Source of the DNA: Lacticaseibacillus rhamnosus
GTDB lineage: Bacteria; Bacillota; Bacilli; Lactobacillales; Lactobacillaceae
Assembly (NCBI RefSeq): GCF_900636965.1
Contig: NZ_LR134331.1
Span: 1,426,001 to 1,490,000 of the forward strand
Reading direction: 5' to 3'
DNA length: 64,000 bases
Part shown: positions 2,926 through 61,960 of the stretch, piece by piece
How the letters are laid out: every line of letters starts with the position of its first letter
Numbering within the stretch: the first letter of the stretch is position 1
The notes under the pieces: generated by a model
The model's database searches: none
The model's input: the letters and a program-made list of their open reading frames with translations, nothing else
What the model was told of the DNA's origin: nothing
Made by a program: the position numbers and the translations under genes

Positions 2926-3226
2926 GTTCGTTGGTGCAGAGGTCTGGATGTAAAGGCTTATTGCGTGCTGGCTCACGCTCCATAACGCGTTCGCCAGCGC
3001 AGAAGTCTGCGTGTAAGGACCTTAAGCGCAATGGCCAAGACCGGGCCATCACGCCCAAGGCCGCTTACACTCCGATCCCTAACCGCGCTGGCTCACGCTC
3101 CATAACGCGTTCGCCAGCGCAGGGATCTGCGTGTAAGGACCTTGGTCGCAATGGCCAAAGACCGGCCATCACGCCCAAGGCCGCTTACACTCCGATCCCT
3201 AACCGCGCTGGCTCACGCTCACTTTC
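2926..3226 (+). repeat. Palindromic repeat array A (two units plus a degenerate partial unit) between hslV and hslU
   Basis: Two tandem units with an exact 120-bp period: the segment CGCTGGCTCACGCTC recurs at about 2966, 3086 and 3206. Each unit folds on itself: AGGGATC, GTGTAAG, CCTTGG and AATGGCC are mirrored by GGCCAT, CCAAGG, CTTACAC and GATCCCT. A degenerate partial copy starts near 2926. In the first unit the 5' arm (AGAAGTC, CTTAAG) does not match its 3' arm (CCCAAGG, GATCCCT), so it looks chimeric. The array ends a few bases before the hslU Shine-Dalgarno sequence. Related arrays occur at 31.6, 55.6, 61.0 and 61.7 kb. Confidence 0.92.
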
Positions 3227-3241
3227 TTTTAGGAGGTTCCC

Positions 3242-4651
3242 ATGGTAGAAGTACAAACACCGAAGCAAATTGTAGAAAAGCTTGATCAGTATGTGATTGG
3301 TCAGGATGAGGCGAAACGGGCCGTGGCGGTGGCTTTGTATAATCGCTATCGGCGGATGCAGTTGTCGCCGAAGATGCAAGAAGAAATCACGCCTAAGAAC
3401 TTGCTTATGATCGGGCCAACCGGGGTCGGGAAGACTGAAATTGCCCGCCGCTTAGCCAAGATCGTGGAAGCACCGTTTGTTAAAGTTGAAGCGACTAAAT
3501 TCACTGAAGTCGGCTATGTTGGCCGCGACGTTGAATCGATGGTGCGGGATCTTGCCGAAACGGCGGTTGCCATGGAGGAAGAAAAGCAGTTTAAAAAAGT
3601 CCGGGTTCGCGCGGAAAAAGAAGCTAACAAGCGGCTGGTTAAAATTTTGGTACCGGCTATTCGCAAAGAAAAAAATAGCAATCCCATGGCGGAAATGATG
3701 AGCATGTTGCAAGGCATGCAAAATGGCAAGATGCCCGCGGGTGACGATGCTGATGCTGGCGGTGAAGTGACGGATGATATTCGCAATCGCCGTTTAAGCG
3801 TGGCGGAGCAATTGGAAAAAGGCTTATTAGAGGATCGTGAAATTACCGTTGCCGTCAATGACGAGAAAAAAGGCGGCGGCATGAGTGATATGTACGGCCA
3901 AATGGGTATTGACCTTAGTGACACGATTGGCGCTTTGATGCCGAAGAAAAAAGTTGAACGCACGATGACCGTCAAGGAAGCACGCGAAATCTTCATCAAA
4001 GAAGAGTCTGATAAACTGGTCAATCATGCCGATATTTATCATGATGCGATTCAAAGCGCGGAAAATAACGGCATCATTTTCATCGACGAAATTGATAAAA
4101 TTGCAGCCGGTGATAAACACACGAGCGGTGAAGTTTCCCGTGAAGGCGTGCAGCGCGATATTTTGCCGATTGTTGAAGGCTCACAGATTAACACCAAATA
4201 CGGACCGATTAATACGGATCACATTCTGTTTATTGGCTCGGGCGCGTTTGCAGAAGCCAAGCCAAGCGATTTGATTGCTGAGTTGCAAGGACGTTTTCCA
4301 ATTCGCGTTGAGTTAAAAGATCTAACGGAACAAGATTTCGTGCGGATCTTGACCGAGCCGGACAATGCGTTGATTAAACAATACATTGCCTTAATTGGCG
4401 CAGACGGGGTCAAAATCACGTTTACGAAAGAGGCCGTTGAACGTATCGCAGAAATCGCCACTCAGGTCAACCATGATACCGATAATATCGGTGCCCGGCG
4501 ACTGGCAACGATTCTCGAGAAACTGTTGGAAGATGTGCTTTATGAAGGTCCGGATATGGCGATGGGCAGCGTCACGGTTACCCAGCAGTATGTTGACGAC
4601 AAGATTGGGCATATCGCCGCGGATAGCAACATGACGCGCTATATTTTGTAA
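3242..4651 (+). CDS. hslU: HslU (ClpY), ATPase subunit of the HslVU protease
   Basis: A 469-residue AAA+ unfoldase that feeds substrates to HslV. Walker A is GPTGVGKTE at residues 58-66 and Walker B is IIFIDEIDK near 280. The intermediate (I) domain lies about 110-240, and the sensor region is GARRLATILEKLLED near 420. The start is ATG 3242 with AGGAGG at 3231-3236. In Bacilli this gene is commonly followed by codY; here an aldose-epimerase-like gene follows instead. Expression with hslV requires transcription through repeat array A, or an unseen promoter within it. Confidence 0.95.
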   Translation: MVEVQTPKQIVEKLDQYVIGQDEAKRAVAVALYNRYRRMQLSPKMQEEITPKNLLMIGPTGVGKTEIARRLAKIVEAPFVKVEATKFTEVGYVGRDVESMVRDLAETAVAMEEEKQFKKVRVRAEKEANKRLVKILVPAIRKEKNSNPMAEMMSMLQGMQNGKMPAGDDADAGGEVTDDIRNRRLSVAEQLEKGLLEDREITVAVNDEKKGGGMSDMYGQMGIDLSDTIGALMPKKKVERTMTVKEAREIFIKEESDKLVNHADIYHDAIQSAENNGIIFIDEIDKIAAGDKHTSGEVSREGVQRDILPIVEGSQINTKYGPINTDHILFIGSGAFAEAKPSDLIAELQGRFPIRVELKDLTEQDFVRILTEPDNALIKQYIALIGADGVKITFTKEAVERIAEIATQVNHDTDNIGARRLATILEKLLEDVLYEGPDMAMGSVTVTQQYVDDKIGHIAADSNMTRYIL

Positions 4652-4690
4652 GGTAACTTTGAAGAACTGTTAGGTAAAGGATGAGAATGT

Positions 4691-5569
4691 ATGGTAACGA
4701 TTGCAAATGACTTTTTAACGGTTAACATCAGTCGGCATGGTGCTGAATTGACCAGTATTAAGGATAATCTGACTGGCCGTGAGCGACTATGGCAGGCTGA
4801 TCCTGAAGTTTGGCCACGCCATGCACCGGTTTTATTTCCAATTGTCGGTGCGTTGGCTGATCAGCAATATCAATACGCTGGCAAGACTTACCATATGGGG
4901 CAACACGGATTTGCGCGTGATCGTGACTTTACGGTTGTGTCCGCAACGCCTTTTAAAGCCAGTCTCGTGCTCAAAGACGATGACAAAACGCGGGCGATGT
5001 TTCCGTTTGCTTTTCGGCTCATCATTACCTATGCGCTAGAAAATAATAACCTGCACGTCACCTACCACGTCGATAACCCCGCTAAAACGGAACCGTTATA
5101 CTTCAGCATCGGTGGACACCCGGGTTTTAACGTTCCCATGACGCCGGATACCGAGTTTGCGGACTATTACATGAACTTCAAGCCGCGTAAGTCCCTGGTG
5201 CAGATTCCGCTTGTTGCTGGGCAAGGTATTGATTACAGTCATCGAACTTTGGCTGCGACCGATGCCAACCTGGCGCTCACACACGAAACGTTTAAAAATG
5301 ATGCGCTTATTTTTGCGCCGCTTGGTAAAACCACCTTCAATTTACTTTCTGATGAAACCAAGCACGGTGTCAGTGTGACCATGGAAGACGCCCCTTACCT
5401 TGGTGTTTGGAGTCCTTACCCTAAGACCGGTGATTTTGTCTGCATCGAACCGTGGTGGGGCATTGCGGATACGATCGGCACCACCGGAGATTTGACCAAG
5501 AAACTCGGCATCAACCGTTTGGAACCGGGAACGGCTTTTGAGAAAGGCTACACGATTAGCATTTTCTAA
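4691..5569 (+). CDS. Aldose 1-epimerase family protein (LacX/GalM-like)
   Basis: A 292-residue protein of the galactose-mutarotase fold. The start ATG 4691 follows AAAGGATGAG. Family hallmarks are the N-terminal ISRHGAELTSIKD, WPRHAPVLFPIVGAL, GQHGFARD (His of the active site) and FSIGGHPGFNVP (second His), plus a conserved acidic residue near the C-terminus (LGINRLEPGTAFE). Such proteins interconvert alpha and beta sugar anomers; LacX-type members are poorly characterised, so the substrate is unknown. It lies 39 bp after hslU on the same strand, and the pair ends at a strong terminator. Confidence 0.8.
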   Translation: MVTIANDFLTVNISRHGAELTSIKDNLTGRERLWQADPEVWPRHAPVLFPIVGALADQQYQYAGKTYHMGQHGFARDRDFTVVSATPFKASLVLKDDDKTRAMFPFAFRLIITYALENNNLHVTYHVDNPAKTEPLYFSIGGHPGFNVPMTPDTEFADYYMNFKPRKSLVQIPLVAGQGIDYSHRTLAATDANLALTHETFKNDALIFAPLGKTTFNLLSDETKHGVSVTMEDAPYLGVWSPYPKTGDFVCIEPWWGIADTIGTTGDLTKKLGINRLEPGTAFEKGYTISIF

Positions 5570-5611
5570 CCGATTAACGAAGCTTGTTAACGAAGATTGT
5601 TGTGCCATTAC

Positions 5612-5641
5612 AAAAAGACATCCGCCAAGGGATGTCTTTTT
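5612..5641. terminator. Bidirectional Rho-independent terminator
   Basis: AAAAAGACATCC, loop GCCAA, GGATGTCTTTTT. It lies between the convergent epimerase-like gene and plsY and can serve both strands. Confidence 0.9.
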
Positions 5642-5662
5642 GATTGTCAGGTATTTGGGTGA

Positions 5663-6286
5663 TTAGTCATGATGATGTTGGTTGCGCAGGTATAGGCCGA
5701 GCCCAAACGGTACCATATTTTCGTCACCGGCCTTGATGCGTTTGAAATTGGCGCGATGTTTGATGAAAAAGACAACCAGTAAGCCGCAAGCAACTGTCGT
5801 CAGTAGCCAATCGTGATACACCAATGACCAGCACGTGATAATCACCATCCCCAGCGTACTGGCCACACTCACCATGGACGTTAATAAGATCAGGCTAAAC
5901 CAGATGGCAAAGGCGATGAAGAAAAATGGCGGGTTATACGCTAACAAAATACCGGCACTGGTTGCGACAGCCTTTCCGCCTTTGAAACCAATGTAGATCG
6001 AAAAAGTATGCCCCAATACCGCTGCCAACCCGACAACCAAGATTAGCCAGTGGTGGTCAATCCCAAATAAAATCGGTAAACTGGCAGACAGTGTTCCTTT
6101 TAGAATATCCAATAGCAAGACTAGGGTACCGCCGACCGGTCCTAACATCCGGTAAGCATTGGTGGTTCCGATATTATGGCTGCCACCTTGGCGAATATCC
6201 GTATGATAAAATAGTTTGCCAACGACCACCCCAAACGGAATGGCGCCGATGAAATAGGCAAGTATAAAACAAAGCACAAGTACCAA
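5663..6286 (-). CDS. plsY: Glycerol-3-phosphate acyltransferase PlsY
   Basis: Integral membrane enzyme that transfers the acyl group from acyl-phosphate to glycerol-3-phosphate, the first step of phospholipid synthesis. I choose a TTG start at 6286 because GAGGAGGGG lies at the right distance upstream; the reading frame stays open further but without a ribosome site. The product is 207 residues with about five hydrophobic segments. Family motifs are GGSHNIGTTNAYR near residue 35-47, GFKGGKAVATS near 102 and the C-terminal basic region HRANFKRIKAGDE. It is divergent from parE-parC, a common arrangement. Confidence 0.93.
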   Translation of the reverse strand: MVLVLCFILAYFIGAIPFGVVVGKLFYHTDIRQGGSHNIGTTNAYRMLGPVGGTLVLLLDILKGTLSASLPILFGIDHHWLILVVGLAAVLGHTFSIYIGFKGGKAVATSAGILLAYNPPFFFIAFAIWFSLILLTSMVSVASTLGMVIITCWSLVYHDWLLTTVACGLLVVFFIKHRANFKRIKAGDENMVPFGLGLYLRNQHHHD

Positions 6287-6537
6287 ATGTGCCCCTCCTC
6301 TCAGACTAAAAACTATTTTAGCATTTTTGACTTTTGAGGGATACGCCGGTAAAATAATACGAACACACATTCGATCTGTGAACTATATTGCATCTTGACA
6401 GTTTCATACAGGCGTTTTTGACTGTGATATTTTGCCGGTGATCACAGAAATTGGGTTTTCTTAAACGTTCCTGCGCTCGCCCTCCGCTTCTGCGTGGTGT
6501 ATTCTATAAATTAGTTGTTTCAAAAAGGGAGTTTATT

Positions 6538-8550
6538 ATGGACAAAGCAACGCAAGCATATAATGATTCATCCATTCAGGTGCTACACGGATTAGAAGCC
6601 GTTCGTAAGCGTCCCGGGATGTATATTGGTTCCACCGATAGCCGCGGGTTACATCATTTGGTTTATGAAATCGTGGATAACTCAGTCGATGAAGCGCTCG
6701 CGGGGTTTGGGGATGAAATTAATGTCACGATTCACGCCGATAATTCTGTGACCGTGCAAGATCATGGTCGGGGGATGCCAACAGGAATGCATCCTAGTGG
6801 TAAGCCGACCATCGAAGTCATCTTAACGGTGTTGCACGCTGGGGGTAAGTTTAACCAGAATAGTTATAAAACATCAGGAGGCCTTCACGGTGTCGGCTCA
6901 AGTGTCGTCAATGCGCTGTCTGAGTCATTGACAGTTCGGGTTGTCCGGGACAAACACGCCTTTGAAGAGCATTTTATTAATGGCGGACATCCTGATGGCG
7001 GGTTGCAGAAGTTGGGCAAGGTTAACGAACCCAATGGCACTACCATTACGTTCAAGCCGGATCCGACTGTTTTCCAGACCACGGTTTTCAATTACGATAC
7101 CTTAGCCGAACGACTGCGCGAATCCGCGTTTTTATTAAAGGCGATCACCATTAATTTAACCGATGAACGGACCGGTAAGCATGATCAGTATCATTATCCG
7201 GATGGTTTGGTTAGTTTCGTGAAGTACCTTAATGAAGGTAAGGACGCCTTATCGCAAGTCATTAATTTTGAAGGCAAGAAAGACGGCATTGTCGTTGATT
7301 TTGCCGGTCAATATAATGATGGCTACTCTGAAAACATTATTTCATTTGTCAACAATGTTCGGACTGGTGATGGCGGCACGCATGAAATCGGATTGCGCAG
7401 TGGGATGACGCGTGCTTTTAATGAATTCGCCCGGAAAGTCGGGTTATTGAAAGACCGCGATAAGAACCTTGAAGGCAGCGATGTCCGCGAAGGTTTTGCG
7501 GGTATTTTGAGTGTCCGCATCCCGGAAGAGATCTTACAATTTGAAGGCCAGACCAAAGGCAAGTTGGGGACGCCTCAGGCACGGACCGTTGTCGATGGGA
7601 TTGTGTACGACCACCTTGCCACCTTCTTGATGGAAAACGGCGAAGAATCGCAAGAACTCGTGCGCAAAGCCATCAAAGCCCGCGATGCTCGTGAAGCCGC
7701 CCGCAAAGCCCGTGATGACAGTCGGACCGGGCGCAAACGCAAAAAGGATCAGGGGCTGCTTTCCGGTAAACTGACCCCGGCACAGACCAAAAACCCTAAG
7801 CGCAACGAACTGTATCTTGTCGAAGGGGATTCCGCCGGTGGTTCTGCCAAGCAGGGACGCGATCGTAAGTTCCAGGCAATTTTGCCATTACGCGGGAAAG
7901 TTTTGAATACGCAAAAAGCCAAGCTGCAGGATATCGTCAAAAACGAAGAAATCAATACCATGATTTATACCATTGGCGCCGGTGTCGGTGCCGATTTTGA
8001 CATCCAGCAGGCTAACTACAATAAGATCATTATTATGACCGATGCCGATACTGATGGTGCGCACATTCAGATCCTGCTGTTGACCTTCTTTTACCGATAC
8101 ATGCGGCCGTTAATCGATGCCGGGCGTGTGTATATCGCACTGCCGCCGTTGTACCGCTTGCAAAAAGGTGCTGGCGCTAAAACGAAGATCAGCTATGCGT
8201 GGACGGATGAAGAGCTAGCTAAGGAAACCAAGGCGATGGGCAAAGGCTATACCTTGACCCGCTTTAAGGGGCTTGGCGAAATGAACGCCGATCAACTATG
8301 GGAGACCACGATGAATCCCGAAACGCGGACACTGATTCGGGTTCGGATTGACGATGCGCAGCTGGCAGAACGCCGGGTTACGACTTTGATGGGCGATCGC
8401 GTTGAACCGCGGCGTGAATGGATTGAACATCACGTGAAGTTTGATCTGGATGATGAAGGCAGTATTCTGGAAACTCCAACGGCAAACCATGAAAAGTTGC
8501 AATTCGGAGCTAAGCAAATCGTCAAGCAATTAGATAAGAAAAGGAAGTAA
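6538..8550 (+). CDS. parE: DNA topoisomerase IV subunit B (ParE)
   Basis: ATPase subunit of topoisomerase IV, which decatenates daughter chromosomes. ATG 6538 has AAAAGGGAG upstream and gives 670 residues, preferred over an in-frame ATG at 6451 that would add an implausible tail. The GHKL ATPase domain includes EIVDNSVDEALAG, DHGRGMP and GGLHGVGSSVVNALS; the TOPRIM domain includes YLVEGDSAGGSAKQ and IIIMTDADTDGAHI. Adjacency to parC, six bases downstream, and to plsY distinguishes it from gyrB. Confidence 0.95.
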   Translation: MDKATQAYNDSSIQVLHGLEAVRKRPGMYIGSTDSRGLHHLVYEIVDNSVDEALAGFGDEINVTIHADNSVTVQDHGRGMPTGMHPSGKPTIEVILTVLHAGGKFNQNSYKTSGGLHGVGSSVVNALSESLTVRVVRDKHAFEEHFINGGHPDGGLQKLGKVNEPNGTTITFKPDPTVFQTTVFNYDTLAERLRESAFLLKAITINLTDERTGKHDQYHYPDGLVSFVKYLNEGKDALSQVINFEGKKDGIVVDFAGQYNDGYSENIISFVNNVRTGDGGTHEIGLRSGMTRAFNEFARKVGLLKDRDKNLEGSDVREGFAGILSVRIPEEILQFEGQTKGKLGTPQARTVVDGIVYDHLATFLMENGEESQELVRKAIKARDAREAARKARDDSRTGRKRKKDQGLLSGKLTPAQTKNPKRNELYLVEGDSAGGSAKQGRDRKFQAILPLRGKVLNTQKAKLQDIVKNEEINTMIYTIGAGVGADFDIQQANYNKIIIMTDADTDGAHIQILLLTFFYRYMRPLIDAGRVYIALPPLYRLQKGAGAKTKISYAWTDEELAKETKAMGKGYTLTRFKGLGEMNADQLWETTMNPETRTLIRVRIDDAQLAERRVTTLMGDRVEPRREWIEHHVKFDLDDEGSILETPTANHEKLQFGAKQIVKQLDKKRK

Positions 8551-8556
8551 AAGCCA

Positions 8557-10998: not shown

Positions 10999-11001
10999 CG
11001 C

Positions 11002-11042
11002 AAAAAAGTCCTCATCTGTATTAATACAGATGAGGACTTTTT
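11002..11042 (+). terminator. Rho-independent terminator of parEC
   Basis: AAAAAGTCCTCATCTGTATT is mirrored by its complement and ends in a T-run. The long perfect stem suggests efficient termination. Confidence 0.93.
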
Positions 11043-11164
11043 GATTTATTATATGACAGTACGGTTGTGCACAACTTATCAAGCTAATGATTAAGCTTTT
11101 TTTATGAAACAGGAAAGTACACCGAAAAAACAGCAAAACGCCTGTTATATCAGCGATAAAACGC

Positions 11165-11192
11165 TTGCATAGATTTGCCTTCGTGTTATACT
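11165..11192 (+). promoter_or_regulatory. Putative sigma-A promoter of pflB
   Basis: TTGCAT (-35), 16-bp spacer, TATACT (-10), followed about 50 bp later by the pflB start. No further operator could be assigned by eye. Confidence 0.65.
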
Positions 11193-27107: not shown

Positions 27108-28214
27108 TCACTTCAGCGCATTTGGCCCAGTGAGTTCTGCCTGAAAAGTTTCAATGATGCGCTGTACCGCCGTGTTTTGTGCCTCAGTGCCAAACGTGAC
27201 GCGCAGCCAGCCGGGTTTTAAGCCATCACGAACAAGAAAACCTTGTTGTAGCAGGCGCTTTTTTAAAGCCGATGCCTGCATTTTGGGGGCCTGAAAGAAT
27301 TGAAAGTTGGTTTGGCTGCGGGTGTGTGGCAGTCCGGTTTGGGTTAAAAAGCGTTCCCAACTATCGCGCGCTTGCTGCACCCGCTTGCGTGTCATCGTGA
27401 CAAAATCCTGATCAGCTAAGGCCGCCTGTGCGCTAACTTGGGCAATGCTGCTTAAATTGTAAGGCAGGCGAACGGTTTGCAAGTAGTTAACAAGTTGTTT
27501 AGGGAAAACACCGAAGCCGACCCGGAAATTCGCCAGTCCATAGATTTTTGAAAATGTTCGCAGCACGACTAGGTTTGGAAACTTTGATAATAAGCTGATA
27601 GCGCTCGTGGCTGGATAGTCATCAGTGAACTCAATATAAGCCTCATCCATTAAAACCAGCACGTCTTTTGGTATTTGTCGCAGCCATTCGGTCAGTGTCG
27701 CAATTGACAGCAGCGTGCCCGTGGGATTATTGGGGTTGCACACCCAAATCAGTTTCGTTTTCGCGGTTAACGCCTGCGCCATTGCAGGTAAATCAAAATT
27801 GCCAGCTTCACTGACGGGGACATCAATCACGGTGGCCCCTTCAATTTGGGCATGCAAGCGGTACTCGGAAAATGTTGGCCATGGTTCAATGACTTCATCC
27901 CCCGGGCTCAAAAAAGTGCGGGCAATTAAGGCAATGACTTCATCCAGACCATTGCCAAAAACCAACTGCTCTGCGGCAACGTCTAAATGTTTTGCCACCG
28001 CGGTGCGTAGTTGACTGGCATAGCCATCGGGGTAATCACGACTTTGCGTAAAATTCCAGTTGGTCACGGCCTGCTGAACTTTGACGCTGGTACCGAATGG
28101 ATTTTCGTTTGCTGACAGCCGCACCAGCTGTGGCAAGCCAAGTTCTTCTTTTAATACGGCAAGAGGCTTTTCTGGCGTATAGGGATGAAGTTGATGAATG
28201 GTAGGTTTAAACAT
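27108..28214 (-). CDS. hisC: Histidinol-phosphate aminotransferase, copy 1
   Basis: A 368-residue PLP-dependent aminotransferase converting imidazole-acetol phosphate to histidinol phosphate. ATG 28214 is chosen because AAGGAGG lies upstream. Family segments are LSANENPFGTS, WVCNPNNPTGT, VLMDEAYIEF and the PLP-lysine motif TFSKIYGLANFRVG. It is the last gene of the his operon proper. A second diverged hisC lies upstream of the T-box at 35.6-36.7 kb. Confidence 0.94.
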   Translation of the reverse strand: MFKPTIHQLHPYTPEKPLAVLKEELGLPQLVRLSANENPFGTSVKVQQAVTNWNFTQSRDYPDGYASQLRTAVAKHLDVAAEQLVFGNGLDEVIALIARTFLSPGDEVIEPWPTFSEYRLHAQIEGATVIDVPVSEAGNFDLPAMAQALTAKTKLIWVCNPNNPTGTLLSIATLTEWLRQIPKDVLVLMDEAYIEFTDDYPATSAISLLSKFPNLVVLRTFSKIYGLANFRVGFGVFPKQLVNYLQTVRLPYNLSSIAQVSAQAALADQDFVTMTRKRVQQARDSWERFLTQTGLPHTRSQTNFQFFQAPKMQASALKKRLLQQGFLVRDGLKPGWLRVTFGTEAQNTAVQRIIETFQAELTGPNALK

Positions 28215-31025: not shown

Positions 31026-31609
31026 GAAATCACTCCTTTGGTTGAGGGAATCCCCTTCACTGCCGGATTCAGCGCCACCGCCGCCTGCATACTACGGCCC
31101 AATGCTTTAAACAACGCTTCAATTTTATGATGCGTATTACGTCCGTATAAAACAGCGGCATGGAGATTGAATTCACCTGCAAAGGCCATAGCCTGGAAAA
31201 AATCTTCCGTCACTTCCGTATCAAATCCTCCGAGTCGTTGATTGGTTAATTCAGCATCAAACACAAGATAAGCGCGGCCGGAAAGATCCACCACCACGCG
31301 GGCGAGGCTTTCATCCATCGGCACAAATGCGTTGCCAAAGCGTTCGATGCCAGCTTTGTCACCCAGCGCTTGTTTAAAGCAACTTCCCAAGACGATGCCT
31401 GTATCTTCAATCGTATGATGCGGATCCACGTCTAAATCGCCTTGGGCTTTAACGATTAAACCCAAGCGTCCATGTTTAGCAAAAGCATCAAGCATATGAT
31501 CGAAGAACCCAATGCCGGTATCAATATCAATACCGCTTTGCTGGTCAAGGTTCAAACTAATCGTTATCGCGGTTTCCTTAGTTGTCCGAGTGATCGTTGC
31601 TGTACGCAT
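31022..31609 (-). CDS. hisB: Imidazoleglycerol-phosphate dehydratase HisB
   Basis: A 195-residue monofunctional dehydratase without a phosphatase domain. Manganese-binding histidine motifs are [24 protein letters not shown], and [17 protein letters not shown] 31609 with GGAGG directly upstream is the start. The frame stays open upstream into repeat array B and would add a repeat-derived tail (MAKTGPS and so on), which I regard as not translated. No histidinol-phosphatase is encoded in this cluster. Confidence 0.95.
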
Positions 31610-31627
31610 GATAAACCTCCTAGAAAA

Positions 31628-31996
31628 GTGAGCGCGAGCCAGCGCGGTTAGAAGTCGGAGTGTAAGTGGCCTTAAGCGTGATGGCCCGGTTTTGGCCATT
31701 GCGCTTAAGGTCCTTACACGCAGACTTCTGCGCTGGGGAGCGCGTTATGGTGAGAGCGCGAGCCGGCGCGGTTAGGGATCGGAGTATAAGTGGCCTTGGG
31801 CGTGATGGCCGGGCTTTGACCATTGCGCCCAAGGTCCTTATACGCAGATCCCTGCGCCGGGGAGCGCGTTATGGTGAGAGCGCGAGCCAGCGCGGTTAAA
31901 AGTCGGAGTGTAAGTGGCCTTAAGCATGATGGCCCGGTTTTGGCCATTGCGCTTAAGGTCCTTACACGCAGACTTCTGCGCCGGGGAGCACGTCCT
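31628..31996 (-). repeat. Palindromic repeat array B (three units) between hisD and hisB
   Basis: Three tandem units with a 124-bp period: GAGCGCGAGCC occurs at 31630, 31754 and 31878. In each unit both arms match: unit 1 has AGAAGTC/GACTTCT and CCTTAAG/CTTAAGG; unit 2 has AGGGATC/GATCCCT and CCTTGGG/CCCAAGG, with GTATAAG/CTTATAC instead of GTGTAAG/CTTACAC; unit 3 resembles unit 1 (AAAAGTC/GACTTCT). The array is oriented with his transcription and ends just before the hisB Shine-Dalgarno sequence. Confidence 0.95.
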
Positions 31997-32027
31997 AAAA
32001 CATCATTTCAACTCATAAAAACATGCT

Positions 32028-35170: not shown

Positions 35171-35474
35171 AAAAAAACGCCCTCGAAAACGGTTTTTAAC
35201 GTTTTCGAGGGCGAATCAACTTCGCGGTACCACCTCAATTTGTCTGGACCTTACGACCCAAACCTCATCTACCAATCCCATGTCGGCTTGCGCGAACTGT
35301 TATTGGCAGCGGTGATAACGCAACGGGTGCGTGATAGCTTACTCGGTTCGGCTATCAAGTTCTTAGATGTGTGTTCAGTCGGTCAATCACGCGTTCTCAG
35401 CAATCGGCGCTCTCTGTGGATTGGTGCCAACCTACTTGGTCTAATCACAACTTCATGGCTATTGATTTAATGTG
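35171..35474 (-). ncRNA. Histidyl T-box riboswitch leader of the his operon
   Basis: Read on the minus strand, the leader has the conserved T-box TGAGGTGGTACCGCG (35223-35237). This is followed by a terminator with a 14-bp stem (CGCCCTCGAAAACG and its complement) and a T-run at 35171-35213. Stem I contains an AGAGAG element, and on its 3' side the specifier context GAA-CAC-A with the His codon CAC at 35371-35373. Uncharged histidyl-tRNA would stabilise the antiterminator and allow transcription of hisZ onward. A sigma-A promoter lies just upstream. Confidence 0.95.
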
Positions 35475-35599: not shown

Positions 35600-36697
35600 T
35601 TAGCTAATATTTGAAGTCTGTTTGATTCCTAAAAAAGTCAGTAACAGTTGTTGAACTTCCGCATCTTGCTTTGGCGTTCCAAAGCTTTGACGAATCCAGC
35701 CAGGAACCATGCTGTCTCGCACCAGATAACCGTGCTGTTTCAGGAAAGTGCCCAGTGCTTGCGGATCATTGACCTGATAGAGCATGAAATTGGTTTGCGT
35801 GGCATAATGGCGGATTTGGTGCTGGTCAAAAAATTGATCCCATTGCTTCCGGGTGGCAAAAATCTGTTGTTTTACCTTGCGTGTGAATGTCTGATCTTCC
35901 CAGGCCGCTAAAGCCGCTGCCTGACTCATGCCGCTGATGTTGTACGGGAGACGAACATTTTGCATTTTGGGGATGAGTGCTTTAGGAACAATACTGAAGC
36001 CAACCCGGAAATTTGCTAACCCGTATAATTTCGAGAAGGTTCGCATGACGAGCAGATTGGGAAACTGATGGGTTAACGATAGCGTGGATGGCTCGGGCTG
36101 ATCGACAAAATCGATATACGCTTCGTCCACGACAACGAGAATGTTGGGCGGCACCTGCTTCATAAACTGCGTGATTTGATCCGGGGGCAAATAAGTACCT
36201 GTCGGATTGTTTGGGTTGCACACCCAGATCACTTTGGTTTTTGTCGTGATGTGGGCTAATAACGCGTCAAGATCAATCTCCCCGGTCGCCGCAATCACGG
36301 GGGCATTAATCGTTGTGGCTCCGGCAATGGCGGCTTGTAACTGGTACTCCGGGTAAGTCGGCCAAGGTTGTAGGCTCTCATCGCCTACTTCTAAAAAGGT
36401 GCGACAAATCAAAGCAATCATTTCGTCTAACCCACTGGAAAAAAGTAATTGCTCCGCTGGAACGCCCAACCGTTTGGCAACCGCGGTCCGCAATGGCAAA
36501 GCATCCGGATCAGGATAATTGCGTGCCTGGGAAAAGGCCCATTTTTCAAGCGCTGCCTGGACCTTTGGCGAGGTACCGACCGGATTTTCATTGAATGACA
36601 AGCGCGTCATTTTAGCCAAACCGGCCGCTTTGGCGATTCTTTCCGGGGTGCTGTCTGAGACATAATCCGGCAGCCCGGCAATACTGTTGCGTAACAT
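35600..36697 (-). CDS. hisC: Histidinol-phosphate aminotransferase, copy 2
   Basis: A 365-residue PLP aminotransferase clearly related to, but diverged from, copy 1. Matching segments are LSFNENPVGTS, WVCNPNNPTGTYL, VVVDEAYIDF and the PLP-lysine motif TFSKLYGLANFRVG. It lies on the same strand immediately upstream of the T-box, outside its control, so it may be expressed when the his operon is off. It may act on aromatic or other imidazole substrates as some HisC paralogues do; this is inference. Confidence 0.88.
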   Translation of the reverse strand: MLRNSIAGLPDYVSDSTPERIAKAAGLAKMTRLSFNENPVGTSPKVQAALEKWAFSQARNYPDPDALPLRTAVAKRLGVPAEQLLFSSGLDEMIALICRTFLEVGDESLQPWPTYPEYQLQAAIAGATTINAPVIAATGEIDLDALLAHITTKTKVIWVCNPNNPTGTYLPPDQITQFMKQVPPNILVVVDEAYIDFVDQPEPSTLSLTHQFPNLLVMRTFSKLYGLANFRVGFSIVPKALIPKMQNVRLPYNISGMSQAAALAAWEDQTFTRKVKQQIFATRKQWDQFFDQHQIRHYATQTNFMLYQVNDPQALGTFLKQHGYLVRDSMVPGWIRQSFGTPKQDAEVQQLLLTFLGIKQTSNIS

Positions 36698-53454: not shown

Positions 53455-53457
53455 TGA

Positions 53458-54114
<657 letters not shown>

Positions 54115-54231
54115 AAAAAAACGCCTCCTACCCAATTTGGATAGAAGGCGACCGTAGCCTGAATAATCCGCCGCAACGGAAAGGAAACCTTCTAAGCCTC
54201 ACTGGACTTAGTTAAAGGTGCTTGTTTGATT
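54115..54231 (-). promoter_or_regulatory. PyrR-dependent transcription attenuator of the pyr operon
   Basis: On the minus strand the PyrR-binding loop AGTCCAGTGAGGCT (54208-54195) matches the known ARUCCNGNGAGGYU pattern. It is followed by the terminator stem CGCCTTCTATCC with GGGTAGGAGGCG and a T-run ending near 54115. With UMP, PyrR would bind and favour termination before pyrR. Confidence 0.95.
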
Positions 54232-54237
54232 GAGTTA

Positions 54238-54266
54238 AGATTACCGAACGTTGCGGGTCTTGTCAA
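54238..54266 (-). promoter_or_regulatory. pyr operon promoter embedded in the end of rluD
   Basis: On the minus strand TTGACA (54266-54261), 17-bp spacer, TAATCT (54243-54238). The -35 is perfect and the -10 (which begins with the rluD stop codon TAA) is poor. The start would be near 54231, exactly where the attenuator begins. Confidence 0.65.
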
Positions 54267-55625: not shown

Positions 55626-55638
55626 AGAAAAATCCTCC

Positions 55639-55890
55639 TGAGCGCGAGCCGGCGCGGTTAGGGATCGGAGTATAAGTGGCCTTGGGCGTGATGGCCCGGT
55701 TTTGGCCATTGCGACCAAGGTCCTTATACGCAGATCCCTGCGCCGGGGAGCGCGTTATGATGTAAGCGCGAGCCAGCGCGGTTAGAAGTCGGAGTATAAG
55801 TGGCCTTGAGCGTGATGGCCCGGTTTTGGCCATTGCGACCAAGGTCCTTATACGCAGATCCCTGCGCCGGGGAGCGCGTTATGATGTAAG
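55639..55890 (-). repeat. Palindromic repeat array C (two units) upstream of lspA
   Basis: Two tandem units. Unit 1 has matching arms (AGGGATC/GATCCCT, CCTTGG/CCAAGG, GTATAAG/CTTATAC). Unit 2 has AGAAGTC and CCTTGAG on one side but CCAAGG and GATCCCT on the other, so its arms are mismatched. The array directly abuts the lspA Shine-Dalgarno sequence and is oriented with lspA transcription. Confidence 0.94.
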
Positions 55891-55951
55891 CATCAGCTGA
55901 CTCCTACCTCAGCCGCGCGTCTAATGTTTGTTTCCTAGTGTACCGCGCCCA

Positions 55952-55983
55952 AAGAAAAACCGCCATCTTGAAAATGGCGGTTA
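55952..55983 (-). terminator. Rho-independent terminator after fhs
   Basis: On the minus strand AACCGCCAT, short loop, ATGGCGGTT, then TTTT. Confidence 0.88.
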
Positions 55984-56007
55984 ACGTTTCTCGCAGCGAT
56001 GACATGA

Positions 56008-57681
56008 TTAGAAAAGTCCGGAAATCTTACCATCGTCAGTAACATCCATGTTTAAAGCAGCTGGTGCTTTTGGCAAGCCTGGCATTGTCAAAACCGTGCC
56101 GGTCATGACGACCAGGAACCCGGCGCCTAGCTTAGGGATAATATCGCGCACATGAATGGTGAAGCCTTCAGGAGCGCCTAGTGTTTTAGCGTTGTCGGTT
56201 AACGAATACTGGGTTTTAGCCATGCAAATCGGCAAGTCCTGCCAACCGTTCTTGGCAATGGTTCGAAGTGCAGCATTCGCTTTACCTTCATAGACAACAT
56301 CGGCACCGCCATAAATCTTTTGAACGATGGTCTTGATTTTTTCTTTGACGTCGCTGTTGCGATCATAAAGCGGTGTGAAGTGACTTGGCTGATTCAAAGC
56401 ATCTAAAACTGCATCCGCAACTGCCAAACCGCCGCGGCCGCCATCTGCCCAAACCGTTGCGGTAACTGCCTTGACATTGAGTTTGGCACAGGCATCAATT
56501 AACCACTGAATTTCGGCATCGGTGTCACTTGTGAACCGATTGACCGCAACGACAACCGGCACGCCGTAACCTTGCATACTGTGGATATGGCGTTTCAGAT
56601 TGGCAAAACCTTTAGCTAACGCGTCCAGGTTTTCCTGTTGCAGATCGGCTAATGCAACCCCGCCGTTATACTTTAGTGCGCGAACGGTTGCGACGATGAC
56701 AACAGCATCCGGGGTTTTACCTAACACTGGGGTCTTGATATCCATGAACTTTTCACCGCCCAGATCAGCGCCGAAGCCAGCTTCCGTAATCGCGATGTTA
56801 CCCAGTTGCAAAGCGGTGCGGGTTGCTAAAACGGAATTACAACCATGTGCGATATTGGCAAATGGGCCACCATGAATAAATGCTGGCGTATGTTCAAGTG
56901 TCTGTACTAAGTTAGGCTTCAGGGCATCGCGCAATAACATGGCAATGGCACCGGTGACTTTTAAATCGCCGACCGTGACGGGTTTGCGGTCATAGGTATA
57001 CCCAATCACAATCCGGCCAATTCTTGCTTTTAGATCGGCAATGTTTTCGGCCAGACATAGAACGGCCATTAATTCGCTGGCGACCGTAATGTCAAACCCA
57101 TCTTCGCGCGGCACGCCACTGGTTGGACCGCCTAAGCCAATTGTTACATGGCGCAGTGCCCGGTCGTTGATATCCAACGCACGCTTCCACAAAATTCGGC
57201 GAGGGTCAATATTGAGTGTGTTTCCTTGCTGCAGATGATTGTCGATTAAAGCGGCCAGTGTGTCAACGGCAGTGGTCAAAGCATGCATGTCACCGGTGAA
57301 GTGTAGGTTAATATCTTCCATCGGTACCACTTGCGCATAGCCGCCACCGGTTGCGCCGCCTTTCATCCCCATGACCGGACCTAATGAAGGTTCCCGCAAT
57401 GCGATAACGGGATGCTGGCCGCGTTGTTGCAATGCATCACCTAAGCCGACAGTAATGGTTGATTTGCCTTCACCGGCGGGGGTCGGATTGATGGATGTGA
57501 CCAAAACGAGCTTGCCAAACGGCTTATCTTTCAACGCATTAAGCGCCGTAAAGCTGAGTTTGGCTTTTGATTTGCCATAAAGTTCCAAATCATCAGCGGT
57601 TAAACCGATACTTGCGGCAACTTTCGTGATTGGCCACATTGAGCTGGCTTCGTTAGCCTGGGCAATTTCAATATCAGACAT
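56008..57681 (-). CDS. fhs: Formate--tetrahydrofolate ligase
   Basis: A 557-residue ATP-dependent enzyme making 10-formyl-THF from formate. The P-loop is [18 protein letters not shown]; other segments are [19 protein letters not shown] and [21 protein letters not shown] 57681 (MSDIEIAQ) with AGGAG upstream is chosen; an in-frame GTG at 57690 is possible. It can use formate from the PFL encoded at 11-14.5 kb for purine and fMet synthesis. Confidence 0.96.
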
Positions 57682-57693
57682 ACAACACACTCC

Positions 57694-58098
57694 TTATTTA
57701 GTGGATGTTTCCAAACCTTTTTTGATCAACGCCACGATTTTTTGTTTTCGCTTTTTGCCGAACATCAGAAACGAAACGCGACCGTATTGTTTGGTTTTAA
57801 GCATAACGGTCAAACGGCCATTCGTAAAGTCCTCAATGTCCGCCCAAGCTAAATTAATCGTGTTACTTTTAAAAAAGCTGGTTAAACGAAGGCCTTTAGG
57901 CGTTGCGACTAGGCGGAGCAATAAAATCTGAACAATCGCAACTAAAATTGTGATACCTGCAACCGCGACCGCCAGCCATGATAAATTGGTGCTTTCCAGC
58001 TGAAGAATGATCGCTAAACTAAGTCCAAATACGATCGCACTCCAAAACATGCTAAAATCGATCCATGCAGGTTGATAATGTGTTCGATATCCTGCCAA
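57694..58098 (-). CDS. EbsA-like membrane protein
   Basis: A 134-residue protein with two N-terminal transmembrane segments (about residues 13-33 and 40-62) followed by a soluble beta-rich part (GLRLTSFFKSNTINLAWADIEDF). This layout, and the divergent neighbour of RNase HI type, fit the EbsA family of lactic acid bacteria, where older names such as pore-forming protein are not well supported. It starts at TTG 58098 with GGAAG upstream. Function unknown. Confidence 0.6.
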   Translation of the reverse strand: MAGYRTHYQPAWIDFSMFWSAIVFGLSLAIILQLESTNLSWLAVAVAGITILVAIVQILLLRLVATPKGLRLTSFFKSNTINLAWADIEDFTNGRLTVMLKTKQYGRVSFLMFGKKRKQKIVALIKKGLETSTK

Positions 58099-58122
58099 TT
58101 TGCCACTTCCTTAGGAGAAATC

Positions 58123-58521
58123 ATGCTTAAACTATACACAGATGGCGCCACAAAAGGCAACCCGGGACCGGCTGGCATCGGCATTCTGGTTAGCGGATTG
58201 CCTCAGCAAATTCAACATCATGCCGCTTTGCCTGCGATGAGTAACCACGAAGCAGAATTTGCTGCTGCCATTGCCGGGTTTAAATTATTGATTGAATCCA
58301 GCTTGACAACAGGCACAGTCGCTTACTACAGCGATTCCAAGTTAGTGATTCAAGCCATTGAAAAGCGCTATGCCAAACACTATCCGGCTTTAACGGCAGA
58401 GCTGCTGAGCTTAATTGACGAGTTTCCGCTGGTATTGCCCAACTGGATCCCGGATCGGCAAAATCGCGGTGCCCATCACCTGGCTCAACAAGGTTTGCAC
58501 CAAGCTGAAACCGAAAGTTAG
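58123..58521 (+). CDS. RNase HI-family protein
   Basis: A 132-residue RNase H-fold protein. Catalytic acidic residues are visible in LYTDGATKGNPGPAGIG (Asp), SNHEAEFAAAIAG (Glu) and AYYSDSKLVIQAI (Asp), with a C-terminal DRQNRGAHHLAQQG segment. Likely degrades RNA in RNA/DNA hybrids. ATG 58123 with AGGAG at 58113-58117. It diverges from the EbsA-like gene with only 24 bp between the two start codons. Confidence 0.9.
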   Translation: MLKLYTDGATKGNPGPAGIGILVSGLPQQIQHHAALPAMSNHEAEFAAAIAGFKLLIESSLTTGTVAYYSDSKLVIQAIEKRYAKHYPALTAELLSLIDEFPLVLPNWIPDRQNRGAHHLAQQGLHQAETES

Positions 58522-58558
58522 TGTCAGTCATCTTGTCGTTTCATGGATCGATTGACGT

Positions 58559-58606
58559 AAAAAAAAGCCTGAAACTCCAGCAATATTGGAAGTTTCAGGC
58601 TTTTTG
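58559..58606. terminator. Bidirectional terminator
   Basis: AAAAAGCCTGAAACTTCC-type stem: AAAAAGCCTGAAACT pairs with AGTTTCAGGCTTTTT between convergent genes. Confidence 0.93.
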
Positions 58607-58637
58607 ATCGAAACGTACCAGCTTGGGTTATAGCTGA

Positions 58638-59240
58638 TTATTTAAGCACTTTGAATTGTTGCTCACGATCCATGTAATCCTTGGCATTCGCTTCGCCTTC
58701 GATGGAACCGAATGGCATCTGAGCACGTAACTGCCAGTTTGCCGGGATATCAAAAGCTTCGCGGACAAGGTCGTCAATGATCGGGTTGTAATGCTGCAAG
58801 TTAGCACCGATACCGTTGTTAGCCAGCGTTACCCACGTGTTAAGCTGAGCCGATCCTTGTGACTGTTCTGCCCAAGTTGCAAAGTTATCGGCATACAGCG
58901 GGAAATTTTTCTCTAACTGTTTTACGACGTCGGTGTCGGTGAAGTATAAAATGGTTGCAAAAGCGGCTTTGAAACCGGCAATTTTCTTCTTGGTTGCCTC
59001 GTAGGCTTCCTCGCTTGGCACTTCACTCTTTAAGCGCTTGACCACAATGTCCCATAACTTATCATGTTGCTCGCCAAACAGGAAAACGGCCCGAGTAGCC
59101 TGTGAGTTAAAGGCTGTTGGTGTTTCTTGAATAACGGATTCGATTAATGCAACCAACTCGTCAGGATTTTGTTTGATATCCTTGCCGAGTGCATAGATGG
59201 AGCGGCGTTGTTTGAGCAGATTTAGAAGATCTTGATTCAC
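58638..59240 (-). CDS. Nitroreductase-family protein (oxidoreductase, Frm2/Hbn1-like)
   Basis: A 200-residue FMN-type oxidoreductase. The N-terminus has LLKQRRSIYALGKDI (FMN site), PTAFNSQATRAVFLFG and the C-terminal half LNTWVTLANNGIGANLQHYNP. It belongs to the small nitroreductase subgroup with fatty-acid-response or stress-linked members. Substrate not known. It is unrelated in detail to the nitroreductase at 25.5 kb. Confidence 0.87.
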   Translation of the reverse strand: MNQDLLNLLKQRRSIYALGKDIKQNPDELVALIESVIQETPTAFNSQATRAVFLFGEQHDKLWDIVVKRLKSEVPSEEAYEATKKKIAGFKAAFATILYFTDTDVVKQLEKNFPLYADNFATWAEQSQGSAQLNTWVTLANNGIGANLQHYNPIIDDLVREAFDIPANWQLRAQMPFGSIEGEANAKDYMDREQQFKVLK

Positions 59241-59474
59241 GAGATAACCACCTTTTTATTATTAATCAATACGTGTTCGGGCACACACCGTCAAACCCAC
59301 CCTCACCTATCACTGGCTGTGAACGTTAAAGGCGGTGCAACGCATGTGAGAACAAGCATAAGTTTACCAACTGACTATTAGTAAGTAAACCCCCAAGCGA
59401 AAATTTCTTGAAAAAGCGACTGGCTAAACTTGCATTAGTATACCGAATCCTGCTTAGCGCTTCTATACTATAAC

Positions 59475-59503
59475 GTGACAGTGACCGTTGGCTTGGGTAC
59501 AAT
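59475..59503 (+). promoter_or_regulatory. Putative cls promoter
   Basis: GTGACA (-35), 17-bp spacer, TACAAT (-10), 27 bp before the cls start; the AGGAGG-like GGAGGTG lies between. Confidence 0.5.
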
Positions 59504-59529
59504 AAAATTATTCTTCATGGAGGTGCGGT

Positions 59530-60999
59530 ATGTCGCTCATTACGTGGCTAATTATTATTATTTTGGTTTTGAATACCATTGGGGCGATTTTCACCGTCCT
59601 CCGCGAAGTCCGCGATATTTCAACGACCTGGGCTTGGTTACTAGTGCTGATTTTCCTGCCGATTATTGGTTTCGGTTTTTATCTATTCGCCGGTCGCGGC
59701 TTGTCAACCAAGAAGTTGCGGCGGATTCAACGCGAATATGAATCTGGCGTGAAAGCCTTCGTGTCACTTCAAAAACATGAAAATGCGCGCAATAAGCTAT
59801 TGCCGCCTACGGATTACACGCCAGCAGCTAAGGCGTTAACGGCCTTTTTTCTTAATACGGCCCAAGCACCGGTACTCGCGCACAACCAGGTTCAACTGTA
59901 CACGGATGGCGAAAAAAAGTTTGCGGCGTTATTTCGTGACATCGAAGCGGCCAAACATTATATCTATGTTGAGTATTACACCATTTATAATGACGAGCTA
60001 GGTAATCAGTTTCAACAACTACTTATAAAGAAAGCCAAGCAAGGCGTCACTGTAAAGGTTTTATATGATGCCTGGGGTTCAATGGGTGCCTCGGCTAAAT
60101 GGTGGCGGCGGCTCACTGATGTCGGCGGACAGGCTGAGAGCTATTTTAGCTCGAAACATCCCATCACCGACTTTCGGCTTAACTATCGCGATCACCGCAA
60201 GATCGTTGTGATTGATGATCACGTTGGCTATATTGGCGGTTTTAATGTCGGTGATCAATATGTTTCGCGTAAACCGAAATTCGGTTACTGGCGCGATACA
60301 CATTTACGCATTGTCGGGAACACCATTTATGCGTTGAAAATTCGCTTTACAATGGATTGGAACGCAACTGTCGATGAGCAAAAAGAAATTGCCTATAACG
60401 TCGAACAAAGCGGTGCCGAGGATCTGACCAGCGAAAGTATGACCGCAGGCAGCACGCCGATTCAAATTGTTGCATCCGGACCTGACCGCCCCACCCAACA
60501 AATCAAGCTGGGGTACACCAAGTTAATCACTAGCGCTACCAAATCAGTTTGGATTCAGAGCCCCTATCTGGTGCCAGATGATACGGTAATCGATGCTTTA
60601 GTCTCGGCGGCGATGTCCGGCATTGATGTCCGAATTATGGTGCCGGATATGCCGGATCATCCCTTTATTTTCCGTGCCACGCAATATTATGCCAATTATC
60701 TGGCGCGATCAGGGGTTAAAATTTATCACTACCAGCACGGTTTCATGCACGCCAAAACCGTGGTTGTTGATGATGCGATTGCCAGTGTTGGCTCGGCAAA
60801 TTTTGATATCCGCAGTTTCAAATTGAACTTCGAAATAAATGCGTTTATTTACGATCGCAAAATTGCCGGAACTTTGGCCGAAATCTTCCAAGCGGATATG
60901 GCCAAAAGCTATCTACTGACACCGGAAATCATTTCGAACCAAGGCTGGTGGTTACGGTTTAAGCAAGACTTTTCCAGGCTCCTGTCCCCTATTCTTTAA
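59530..60999 (+). CDS. cls: Cardiolipin synthase
   Basis: A 489-residue membrane-bound phospholipase-D-family enzyme joining two phosphatidylglycerols. Two N-terminal transmembrane helices lie in about residues 5-58. Two HKD motifs are present: YRDHRKIVVIDDHVGYIGG and FMHAKTVVVDDAIASVGS. Start ATG 59530 with GGAGGTG upstream. A repeat unit and a terminator follow. Confidence 0.95.
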   Translation: MSLITWLIIIILVLNTIGAIFTVLREVRDISTTWAWLLVLIFLPIIGFGFYLFAGRGLSTKKLRRIQREYESGVKAFVSLQKHENARNKLLPPTDYTPAAKALTAFFLNTAQAPVLAHNQVQLYTDGEKKFAALFRDIEAAKHYIYVEYYTIYNDELGNQFQQLLIKKAKQGVTVKVLYDAWGSMGASAKWWRRLTDVGGQAESYFSSKHPITDFRLNYRDHRKIVVIDDHVGYIGGFNVGDQYVSRKPKFGYWRDTHLRIVGNTIYALKIRFTMDWNATVDEQKEIAYNVEQSGAEDLTSESMTAGSTPIQIVASGPDRPTQQIKLGYTKLITSATKSVWIQSPYLVPDDTVIDALVSAAMSGIDVRIMVPDMPDHPFIFRATQYYANYLARSGVKIYHYQHGFMHAKTVVVDDAIASVGSANFDIRSFKLNFEINAFIYDRKIAGTLAEIFQADMAKSYLLTPEIISNQGWWLRFKQDFSRLLSPIL

Positions 61000-61018
61000 A
61001 TTGCTTCAAAAGCCTTTC

Positions 61019-61150
61019 ATTATAACGCGCTCACCGGCGCAGAAGTCTGCATGTAAGGACCCCTTAAGCGCAATGGCCAAAACCCGGCCATCACGCTTAA
61101 GGCCACTTACACTCCGACTTCTAAACGCGCCGGTTCACGCTCACTTTCTA
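61019..61150 (+). repeat. Palindromic repeat D (single unit) downstream of cls
   Basis: One full unit with matching arms AGAAGTC/GACTTCT and CTTAAG/CTTAAG, centred on AATGGCC/GGCCAT. Oriented with cls transcription and followed after about 16 bp by a terminator. Confidence 0.9.
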
Positions 61151-61165
61151 TAAGGCGCAAATGAT

Positions 61166-61218
61166 AACAACGCCGGTTCAACGATGTGATGTTTCGCTGA
61201 ACCGGCGTTGCTTTTTGA
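61166..61218 (+). terminator. Rho-independent terminator after cls
   Basis: ACAACGCCGGTTCA pairs with TGAACCGGCGTTGC and is followed by a T-run. Confidence 0.9.
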
Positions 61219-61325
61219 AAAATGGCTGATGAAGATACCGCGATTAAGTAAAATTATTACCAAAAAGGACTAAAGTCGTCTACTGAACGATACCCCGCGC
61301 TTGGAGACTTTCAGGACCGCGCGCA

Positions 61326-61652
61326 TTAACGCTGCCAATCATCCAATACCTTGGTGTGACCAAGAAGGTAATGAATCGCAGCATGAACTAACTCGTCGCG
61401 TGCCGTGAGTAATTCATCGCCGTCAAGATTATACTTATCGCGCAAATAACCCTCTGCAATCGCTTGATATTCTTTGCGCGCTTCGCCACCATCGTTTAAA
61501 TAAGTATCGATCGCTTCCAGATTATCTTTGGCCCGATTAGCCAGTTCTTCGGCCAGATCATCAACATGCGGCTGACGTTTGTGAGCGTAATCCATCAGCG
61601 TGTCATTCATATCAATGACGGCCGCTTCATCAGCTTTCTTGTCACGTTTCAT
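61326..61652 (-). CDS. Hypothetical protein, 108 residues
   Basis: No family recognised. A soluble, acidic and helical protein (MKRDKKADEAAVIDMNDTLM at the start; AEELANRAKDNLEAIDTYLN in the middle). ATG 61652 has GGAG about ten bases upstream; a longer in-frame reading would run into repeat array E and is rejected. No membrane segment. It is flanked on both sides by repeat units, and no neighbour gives a clue to its job. Confidence 0.75.
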   Translation of the reverse strand: MKRDKKADEAAVIDMNDTLMDYAHKRQPHVDDLAEELANRAKDNLEAIDTYLNDGGEARKEYQAIAEGYLRDKYNLDGDELLTARDELVHAAIHYLLGHTKVLDDWQR

Positions 61653-61708
61653 GGTTACTTCATCTCCTAATACTATTAGTATGCACCTATGACCTATTTT
61701 CATCAACG

Positions 61709-61960
61709 CTGAGCGCGAACCGGCGCGGTTAGAAACCGGAACATAAGTGGCCTTGGGCGGTGATGGCCCGGGCTTGGCCATTGCGTCCAAGGTCCTTATG
61801 TGCAGGTTTCTGCGCCGGTGAGCGTGTTATAGAAAGTGAGCGTGAACCGGCGCGTTTAGAAGTCGGAGTGTAAGTGGCCTCAGGCGTGATGGCCGGGGCT
61901 TTGGCCATTGCGACTGAGGTCCTTACATGCAGACTTCTGCGCCGGTGAGTCTGTTATAGT
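61709..61960 (-). repeat. Palindromic repeat array E (two units) between the Mga-like gene and the hypothetical
   Basis: Unit 1 has arms AGAAACC/GGTTTCT, ACATAAG/CTTATGT and CCTTGG/CCAAGG. Unit 2 has AGAAGTC/GACTTCT and CCTCAG/CTGAGG. Both sets of arms pair although they differ from those at the other loci, giving further compensatory changes. Oriented with the minus-strand genes. Confidence 0.93.

Follow-up and report, generated by a model that had tools for sequence, protein, structure and literature searches.

A hairpin-shaped intergenic repeat of Lacticaseibacillus rhamnosus with relatives among the Lactobacillales

Described structured repeats and the lactobacillar hairpin

Among the structured intergenic repeats of bacteria, BOX, RUP and SPRITE of the streptococci (S. 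pneumoniae) have been judged to be parasitic and slower than insertion sequence (IS) elements, and IS-like terminal repeats have been suggested for BOX and RUP (PMC3049150, PMC2267715). We analysed a repeat found in a stretch of 64,000 nucleotides (nt) from Lacticaseibacillus rhamnosus (contig NZ_LR134331.1, positions 1,426,001 to 1,490,000), which is called the window throughout; its source genome is denoted G000. The repeat unit is a long hairpin of about 120 bp which a first-pass annotation had noticed at five loci of the window. On balance, and with modest confidence, we regard these units as members of a Lactobacillales superfamily of mobile elements that are short and non-coding; they would be non-autonomous, recognised by their folded strand and moved in trans.

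The lactobacillar hairpin resembles BOX, RUP and SPRITE in being intergenic, structured and present in high copy number, BOX being modular and variable in length. It differs from the three, as compared by published lengths and structures, in keeping one fixed architecture in 23 of the 74 genera sampled, in following a one-sided boundary rule and in forming arrays graded by decay. REP elements are likewise extragenic palindromes, which form species-specific families of a common plan with an unpaired motif beside the hairpin, and they have been hypothesised to be moved in trans by RAYT transposases (PMC3733652). However, REPs are 20–40 bp long and tagged by GTAG or CGTC (PMC3733652), whereas the present unit is about 120 bp long and none of 181 full units has GTAG, GTGG or CGTC within its terminal 12 nt on the canonical strand, the one considered here (it starts GAGCG...GAGCC and ends ...GCGCGTTAT, and its odd pairs are mostly G.T). 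Membership of the REP/RAYT system was rejected, no Y1 (HUH) transposase having been found in G000 or in a second genome, G005.

Efa-1 of Enterococcus faecalis, also a structured intergenic repeat of Lactobacillales, is by its description an adjacent pair of stem-loops of 163 bp (PMC2267715), in contrast to the single hairpin of the present unit. ERIC is presented in the same source as an E. coli repeat (PMC2267715); the lactobacillar hairpin has no match in Rfam. Matches above the gathering score of Rfam 15 in the window were limited to a T-box and a PyrR element, and a permissive scan of 31600–32020 returned MIR5274 at 26 bits (cut-off 100); a named RNA family was rejected for want of a match to the units above the gathering score. 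The first-pass annotation had not recognised the repeat as a named element, and neither Rfam nor the literature searched (few subscription papers were covered) provided a description of such a repeat in lactobacilli. ERIC is similar in length to the lactobacillar unit, and we know of no boundary rule for it; EFAR, which is related to Efa-1, inserts at stem-loop targets, and group IIC introns insert directly downstream of terminator hairpins. Many of the present units sit just after T-runs. A group II intron or other reverse transcriptase is not supported, RVT_1 being absent from genomes G000, G005 and G023 (L. zeae genome G010 has one, with an internal stop).

The units display the highly base-paired secondary structure by which miniature inverted-repeat transposable elements (MITEs) are defined (PMC3049150); they depart from the AT-rich composition that also belongs to the definition, with a GC content of 0.607 (181 units) versus 0.478 for the window. 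A structured intergenic repeat, probably non-autonomous, is a kind of element already known; no description was found in the literature searched of a shape conserved across the order, of a boundary rule that is one-sided or of arrays with such polarity.

A conserved shape with changing arms

A genome-wide search, as proposed in the first-pass annotation, revealed that the repeat is far more abundant in G000 than the five loci of the window: two sequence patterns gave 110 and 177 exact matches, and the reversed patterns gave none. In 80 stretches of G000 together with the window (526 kb), 254 units were found in 115 clusters (30 single, 45 double, 29 triple and 11 larger, with a maximum of six units); the stretches were picked because they hold matches, so that unit densities in them are not genome averages. 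When scaled from the pattern matches, the genome is estimated to contain about 307 units. One pair of 121-bp units is 100% identical at two distant loci. In arrays such as L033:2174-2604, the full first unit is followed by a second unit type with a shortened left arm and a period of 103 bp.

For the ten full units of the window, RNAalifold predicted 43 pairs, 12 of them with double compensatory change. Among 115 casei-type units, 98.0% of alignment cells are paired versus 91.1% in shuffled alignments (0 of 500 shuffles as high), double change is seen at 20 of 36 pairs, and pairing falls to 31.6–53.1% when the partners are slid; this set was drawn from 142 units sampled among 235 eligible ones, 27 having been removed by hand with no criterion recorded. 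The common plan comprises a basal stem, a 3-nt internal loop, a stem of 7–8 bp, a one-sided 4-nt bulge (usually NTTA, adjoining an invariant G.T wobble), a second stem, an internal loop and a long stem. The relatives that were read in other genomes are 116–126 bp long, many of them in tandem and most with the common plan; the upper part of the hairpin deviates from it in the relatives from G024, G006 and G036.

A cross-species alignment of 36 units from 12 genomes was assembled from 30 of the 36 loci L270-L305 and 6 casei-type units, with orientation set by motif. The proportion of paired cells is 90.4% (61.7% shuffled), the number of double-change cells 383 (118 shuffled) and the covariation score 0.762 (0.232 shuffled), and for none of these measures was any of 500 shuffles as high; the pairing percentages are biased upward in that the 36 loci were found with a covariance model, R1, which rewards pairing, and in that the motif decided the orientation. 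All four Watson–Crick types are seen at 11 of the 36 pairs, while G8-C122, C19-G111 and the G20.T110 wobble are invariant in 36 of 36 units. Identity to a window unit is 0.69–0.86 for the other casei-type units and 0.42–0.67 for the remaining units of the alignment. Better evidence than the pairing percentages is given by the ends, length and bulge that the units share and by their tandem arrays, though the model counts these too. The first-pass claim that the paired arms change together is borne out by the excess over shuffles in both sets, and its proposal that the hairpin itself is maintained is supported by the excess of paired cells.

Matches to R1 occur in 26 of 30 genomes of the genus (in one of the 26 as a single match, E-value 2.3e-4) and in 1 of 16 genomes outside it; genomes of the casei group have at least 120 matches each, although R1 counts may take one palindrome on both strands as two matches. 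A second model, R2, was applied at an E-value of 1e-5 with stricter filters, 12 candidates per genome being scored. It matched 40 of 295 Lactobacillales genomes, from 23 of the 74 genera sampled, and at this threshold the other 255 genomes had no match. Most of the 19 R2 loci read out show the common plan by eye, 3 of them on the opposite strand. A viral carrier is unsupported: no match was found in phages, nor in viral contigs, the latter searched with one strict pattern.

Gene boundaries, arrays and the units of the window

Placement was analysed for 248 clusters, which became 240 after removal of repeats of one place and 208 with usable flanks (the L. zeae and L. chiayiensis set represents 80 of 96 loci); T-runs and Shine–Dalgarno sequences were recognised as text patterns, and gene calls are crude. 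A T-run is present within 14 nt of the canonical 5' end in 74 of 208 clusters (3' end, 4 of 208; nearby controls, 55 of 2080), and an antisense Shine–Dalgarno sequence within 22 nt in a further 58 (3' end, 6 of 208; controls, 32 of 2080). Either motif is found in 132 of 208 clusters at the canonical 5' end and in 10 of 208 at the other end. Motif distances, like gene contexts and nearest-neighbour figures, were taken from the set before removal of repeated places: the T-run ends 0–9 nt ahead of the conserved GAGCG (83 clusters), and the core of the antisense Shine–Dalgarno sequence lies 1–16 nt ahead of it (63 clusters). A subtype in which A precedes GAGCG lies at the 3' end of a sense reading frame in 16 of 33 cases, by crude calls. 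In other species, adjacency to an antisense Shine–Dalgarno sequence was seen by eye at L276, L278, L288, L291 and L295. Placement looks like a boundary rule, the boundary being a T-run, an antisense Shine–Dalgarno sequence or a gene end.

Where genes were called on both sides, 197 of 207 clusters are intergenic, and 143 of these lie between co-directional, 40 between divergent and 14 between convergent genes. The repeat had been described as inserted inside operons, which agrees with the 143 tandem gaps and not with the divergent and convergent ones. At L185, L192 and L201 of L. chiayiensis, a unit stands behind a sequence resembling the end of 23S rRNA, and the element may thus sit in rRNA operons.

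Arrays are polarised. In 117 of 138 arrays (76 of 85 in G000, 25 of 31 in L. zeae), the score of the unit at the boundary exceeds that of the last one (Wilcoxon P = 8e-17). Boundary units of G000 have closer relatives at other loci than distal units have (medians 0.950 versus 0.908, P = 2e-8); in L. zeae, where duplicate places are included, the two are alike (0.925 versus 0.917, P = 0.66). At L195, zeae 260995 and zeae 262032, each compared with G005, a different unit stands at the boundary with the older one behind it and with flanks that are 91–98% identical; these three orthologous comparisons suggest that newer units enter at the boundary end. Tandem duplication seems to occur too (zeae 241060 versus G005). 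Copies of L243:4168-4288 of L. zeae are present with 97–98% identity at four places in G005, hinting at a recently active subfamily. In another L. zeae array (L204:5390-5902), the downstream units keep mainly their right halves and are separated by a repeated linker.

The clearest pairs of empty and filled sites are L142 versus L194, with a target duplication no longer than one base, and L198 versus L176, where ATTTT may be repeated. Loss of units takes place through deletion of the hairpin, and the resulting scars are seen in plasmids and chromosomes. The phosphotransferase system (PTS) IIB-IIC site of plasmids is filled by a unit in three cases, two from L. paracasei and one from P. inopinatus, while an L. 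plantarum plasmid keeps an end of about 14 nt; two carriers of this site have clearly different units inside a stretch of 1101 bases that is 96.9% alike. Other plasmids have two units, one unit or only a scar, and further ones scars or a right-arm remnant. The lone casei-type unit of L. suilingensis (G016; two model matches, one place) is at the same PTS IIB-IIC site and, this site being plasmid-borne, was probably brought in by a plasmid and has probably not spread since.

Within the window, the five loci were confirmed with 10 full units, 120–125 bp as cut and each a long imperfect hairpin, and the arm pairs quoted in the first-pass annotation are correct; two decayed units had been overlooked. 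Locus 1 (canonical strand reverse) consists of a boundary-proximal full unit (3102–3224), which abuts the antisense Shine–Dalgarno sequence of an HslU-like gene, a full unit with mismatched arms (2982–3101) and, at the distal end of the array, the first overlooked one, a decayed third unit (2918–2981). Locus 2 (forward) has three full units: a boundary-proximal one (31626–31748) near the antisense Shine–Dalgarno sequence of an imidazoleglycerol-phosphate dehydratase gene, a second (31749–31872), and a distal one (31873–31996) with a histidinol dehydrogenase gene beyond. Locus 3 (forward) has a full unit (55636–55758) abutting the antisense Shine–Dalgarno sequence of a signal peptidase II gene and a second one (55759–55882) which, like 2982–3101, is a left/right chimera with arms of different types. 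Locus 4 is a single full unit in a convergent gap (61022–61145, reverse), whose 5' flank resembles by eye the end of a lost unit, and locus 5 (forward) consists of a boundary-proximal (61706–61830) and a distal (61833–61957) full unit. The other overlooked unit is a remnant of 34 bp (54081–54114, reverse) that preserves the left end alone and adjoins the T-run of the PyrR attenuator on its downstream side; in G005 and G023, full units occupy the orthologous sites. This pyr site is common to the three genomes, while the G005 and G023 counterparts of window loci 2–5 show no visible remnant by eye, so that the sites occupied do differ between genomes farther apart.

The genes beside locus 1 match Pfam Proteasome and AAA_2, from which they may be read as HslV and HslU. 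The Rfam matches of the window are a T-box leader at 35204–35457 and a PyrR binding site at 54115–54222, both on the reverse strand, and the remnant starts where the latter ends. Two 139-bp stretches at 27445–27583 and 35928–36066 are 71% alike and are probably parts of paralogous genes.

Maintenance and movement of the hairpin

If the units are mobile elements moved in trans, the fold under maintenance would be one long hairpin of the strand that bears the G.T (or G.U) wobbles. On the canonical strand, G.T exceeds A.C in the cross-species alignment by 127 cells to 27, or by 91 to 27 if the invariant wobble is left aside, and by 82 to 46 at Watson–Crick-majority pairs of the casei-type set (binomial P = 0.002, presuming independent cells, which they are not). 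For 71 of 104 G000 clusters, the neighbouring gene on the left is antisense to this strand. Because a hairpin selected in the mRNA of the left gene should show the opposite wobble bias, we prefer folding of a DNA strand, or of an RNA made from the element itself, to a role in host mRNA. The first-pass annotation had left RNA or DNA open; the antisense orientation argues against the mRNA of the left gene.

The bulge, wobble and loops are kept while the arms change, which would be explained by a partner that reads the shape and not by copying from arm to arm. This partner may be an enzyme acting in trans which reads the shape of the wobble-bearing strand, probably as single-stranded DNA, and which would join the 5' end of that strand to a boundary, after a terminator T-run, beside an antisense Shine–Dalgarno sequence or at a gene end, insertion being the likely cause of the boundary rule. 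The target side would survive insertion and further units could enter at the same point, so that arrays would grow from the boundary end, with older units drifting outward and decaying mainly by hairpin deletion between short direct repeats; a host function would presumably be lacking. Of this picture, the data themselves show the family, the conservation of its shape, its constant orientation, its position beside boundaries, the gradient of decay and the turnover of units, whereas the enzyme, the single-stranded form, insertion as the origin of the boundary rule and the want of a host function are inferred. A more specific form of this proposal, which we put forward tentatively and would not bet on, is an order-wide class of elements in which what is inherited is chiefly the shape of a single DNA strand. 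The host would encode the enzyme and pass it on vertically; the enzyme would read the bulge and the wobble, not the sequence, and thread the folded single strand into gene boundaries. Element and enzyme would have drifted together in each species, so that sequences are now far apart and the fold is not.

Several observations weigh against movement in trans as described. Two measures of the cross-species set are close to the shuffled values: double change is seen at 32 of 36 pairs (29.7 shuffled; reached by 36 of 500 shuffles), and there are 94 further pair types (86.4 shuffled; reached by 12 of 500). For 76 of the 208 clusters neither boundary motif is present, and a pyrimidine run is all that the two commonest motifs have in common, so that placement may partly reflect tolerated sites. 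In L. chiayiensis alone, polarity is not significant (12 of 18, P = 0.18), and gain at the boundary rests on the three comparisons given above, in which loss or replacement may have occurred on the other side. Mapping to G005 (about 95% identity) succeeded for 19 of the 32 L. zeae clusters on 320 kb: 14 face units or remnants and the other 5 a scar or end piece by eye, which leaves no clean empty site. Conversely, 14 of the 15 G005 clusters mapped (out of 27) face units in L. zeae, shared occupancy being inflated because the orthologous pairs come from loci that have matches. New sites gain units slowly, and at the distance between L. zeae and G005 sites are old and units change within them; we therefore lowered our estimate slightly, from fairly probable to narrowly favoured. 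As to the mover, the Y1 transposase domain PF01797 was not found in G000 or G005 (it is present in 9 of the 25 genomes searched, L. zeae G010 included; genomes G016-G024, and thus G023, were outside that search), RVT_1 is lacking in the three genomes named above, and no longer element sharing the unit ends was found in about 1.36 Mb of sampled DNA, which leaves an autonomous element with the same ends unsupported.

A rather unlikely explanation is a host-serving RNA element, i.e. a processing or stability signal before Shine–Dalgarno sequences and after terminators, in which selection on the RNA keeps the pairing. The strongly kept structure is as expected from it, as are the intergenic position of 197 of the 207 clusters, many of them near a Shine–Dalgarno sequence or T-run, and the fact that close relatives largely share sites; moreover, ERIC, Correia and BOX repeats have been reported to affect transcripts (PMC3049150). 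However, with the canonical strand antisense as often as noted above, the mRNA of the left gene would hold A.C mispairs, unit number and type differ at one site between close relatives, and distal units decay.

Some sites with nearly identical surroundings are occupied by whole units of different kinds, chimeric units exist in the window, and IS30, ISL3 or IS5 family transposase genes lie near some plasmid copies; all this would fit an ordinary MITE moved by a DDE transposase, with covariation arising as a by-product of template switching from arm to arm and gene conversion of whole units and not from selection on shape. We consider this improbable: arm copying should erase the 4-nt bulge, the internal loops and the invariant wobble, all of which persist across species, the units are GC-rich compared with the window, and, of the clear empty sites, one lacks any duplication longer than a base, while another has the possible ATTTT repeat. 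Structure-recognising site-specific recombination of the integron attC kind, with bare arrays devoid of gene cassettes, is very improbable in spite of the likeness to attC of an imperfect palindrome of about 120 bp that keeps shape over sequence and has its newer units beside a fixed boundary, since that boundary differs among loci instead of being one attI, no cassettes lie between the units read, and R-box ends are not evident by eye.

For the favoured mobile element, nearly all pairs have changed across genera while the bulge, loops and one wobble are kept; from this follows the concrete prediction of a partner that reads shape, which can be tested in tractable food bacteria. Being graded by decay, the arrays may also record insertions of the past. 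For annotation, the gain is a model that would account for intergenic stretches so far without explanation, up to hundreds of them in a genome. If insertion truly seeks terminators and ribosome-binding sites, the hairpin would be a parasite that lives in compact operons without killing genes.

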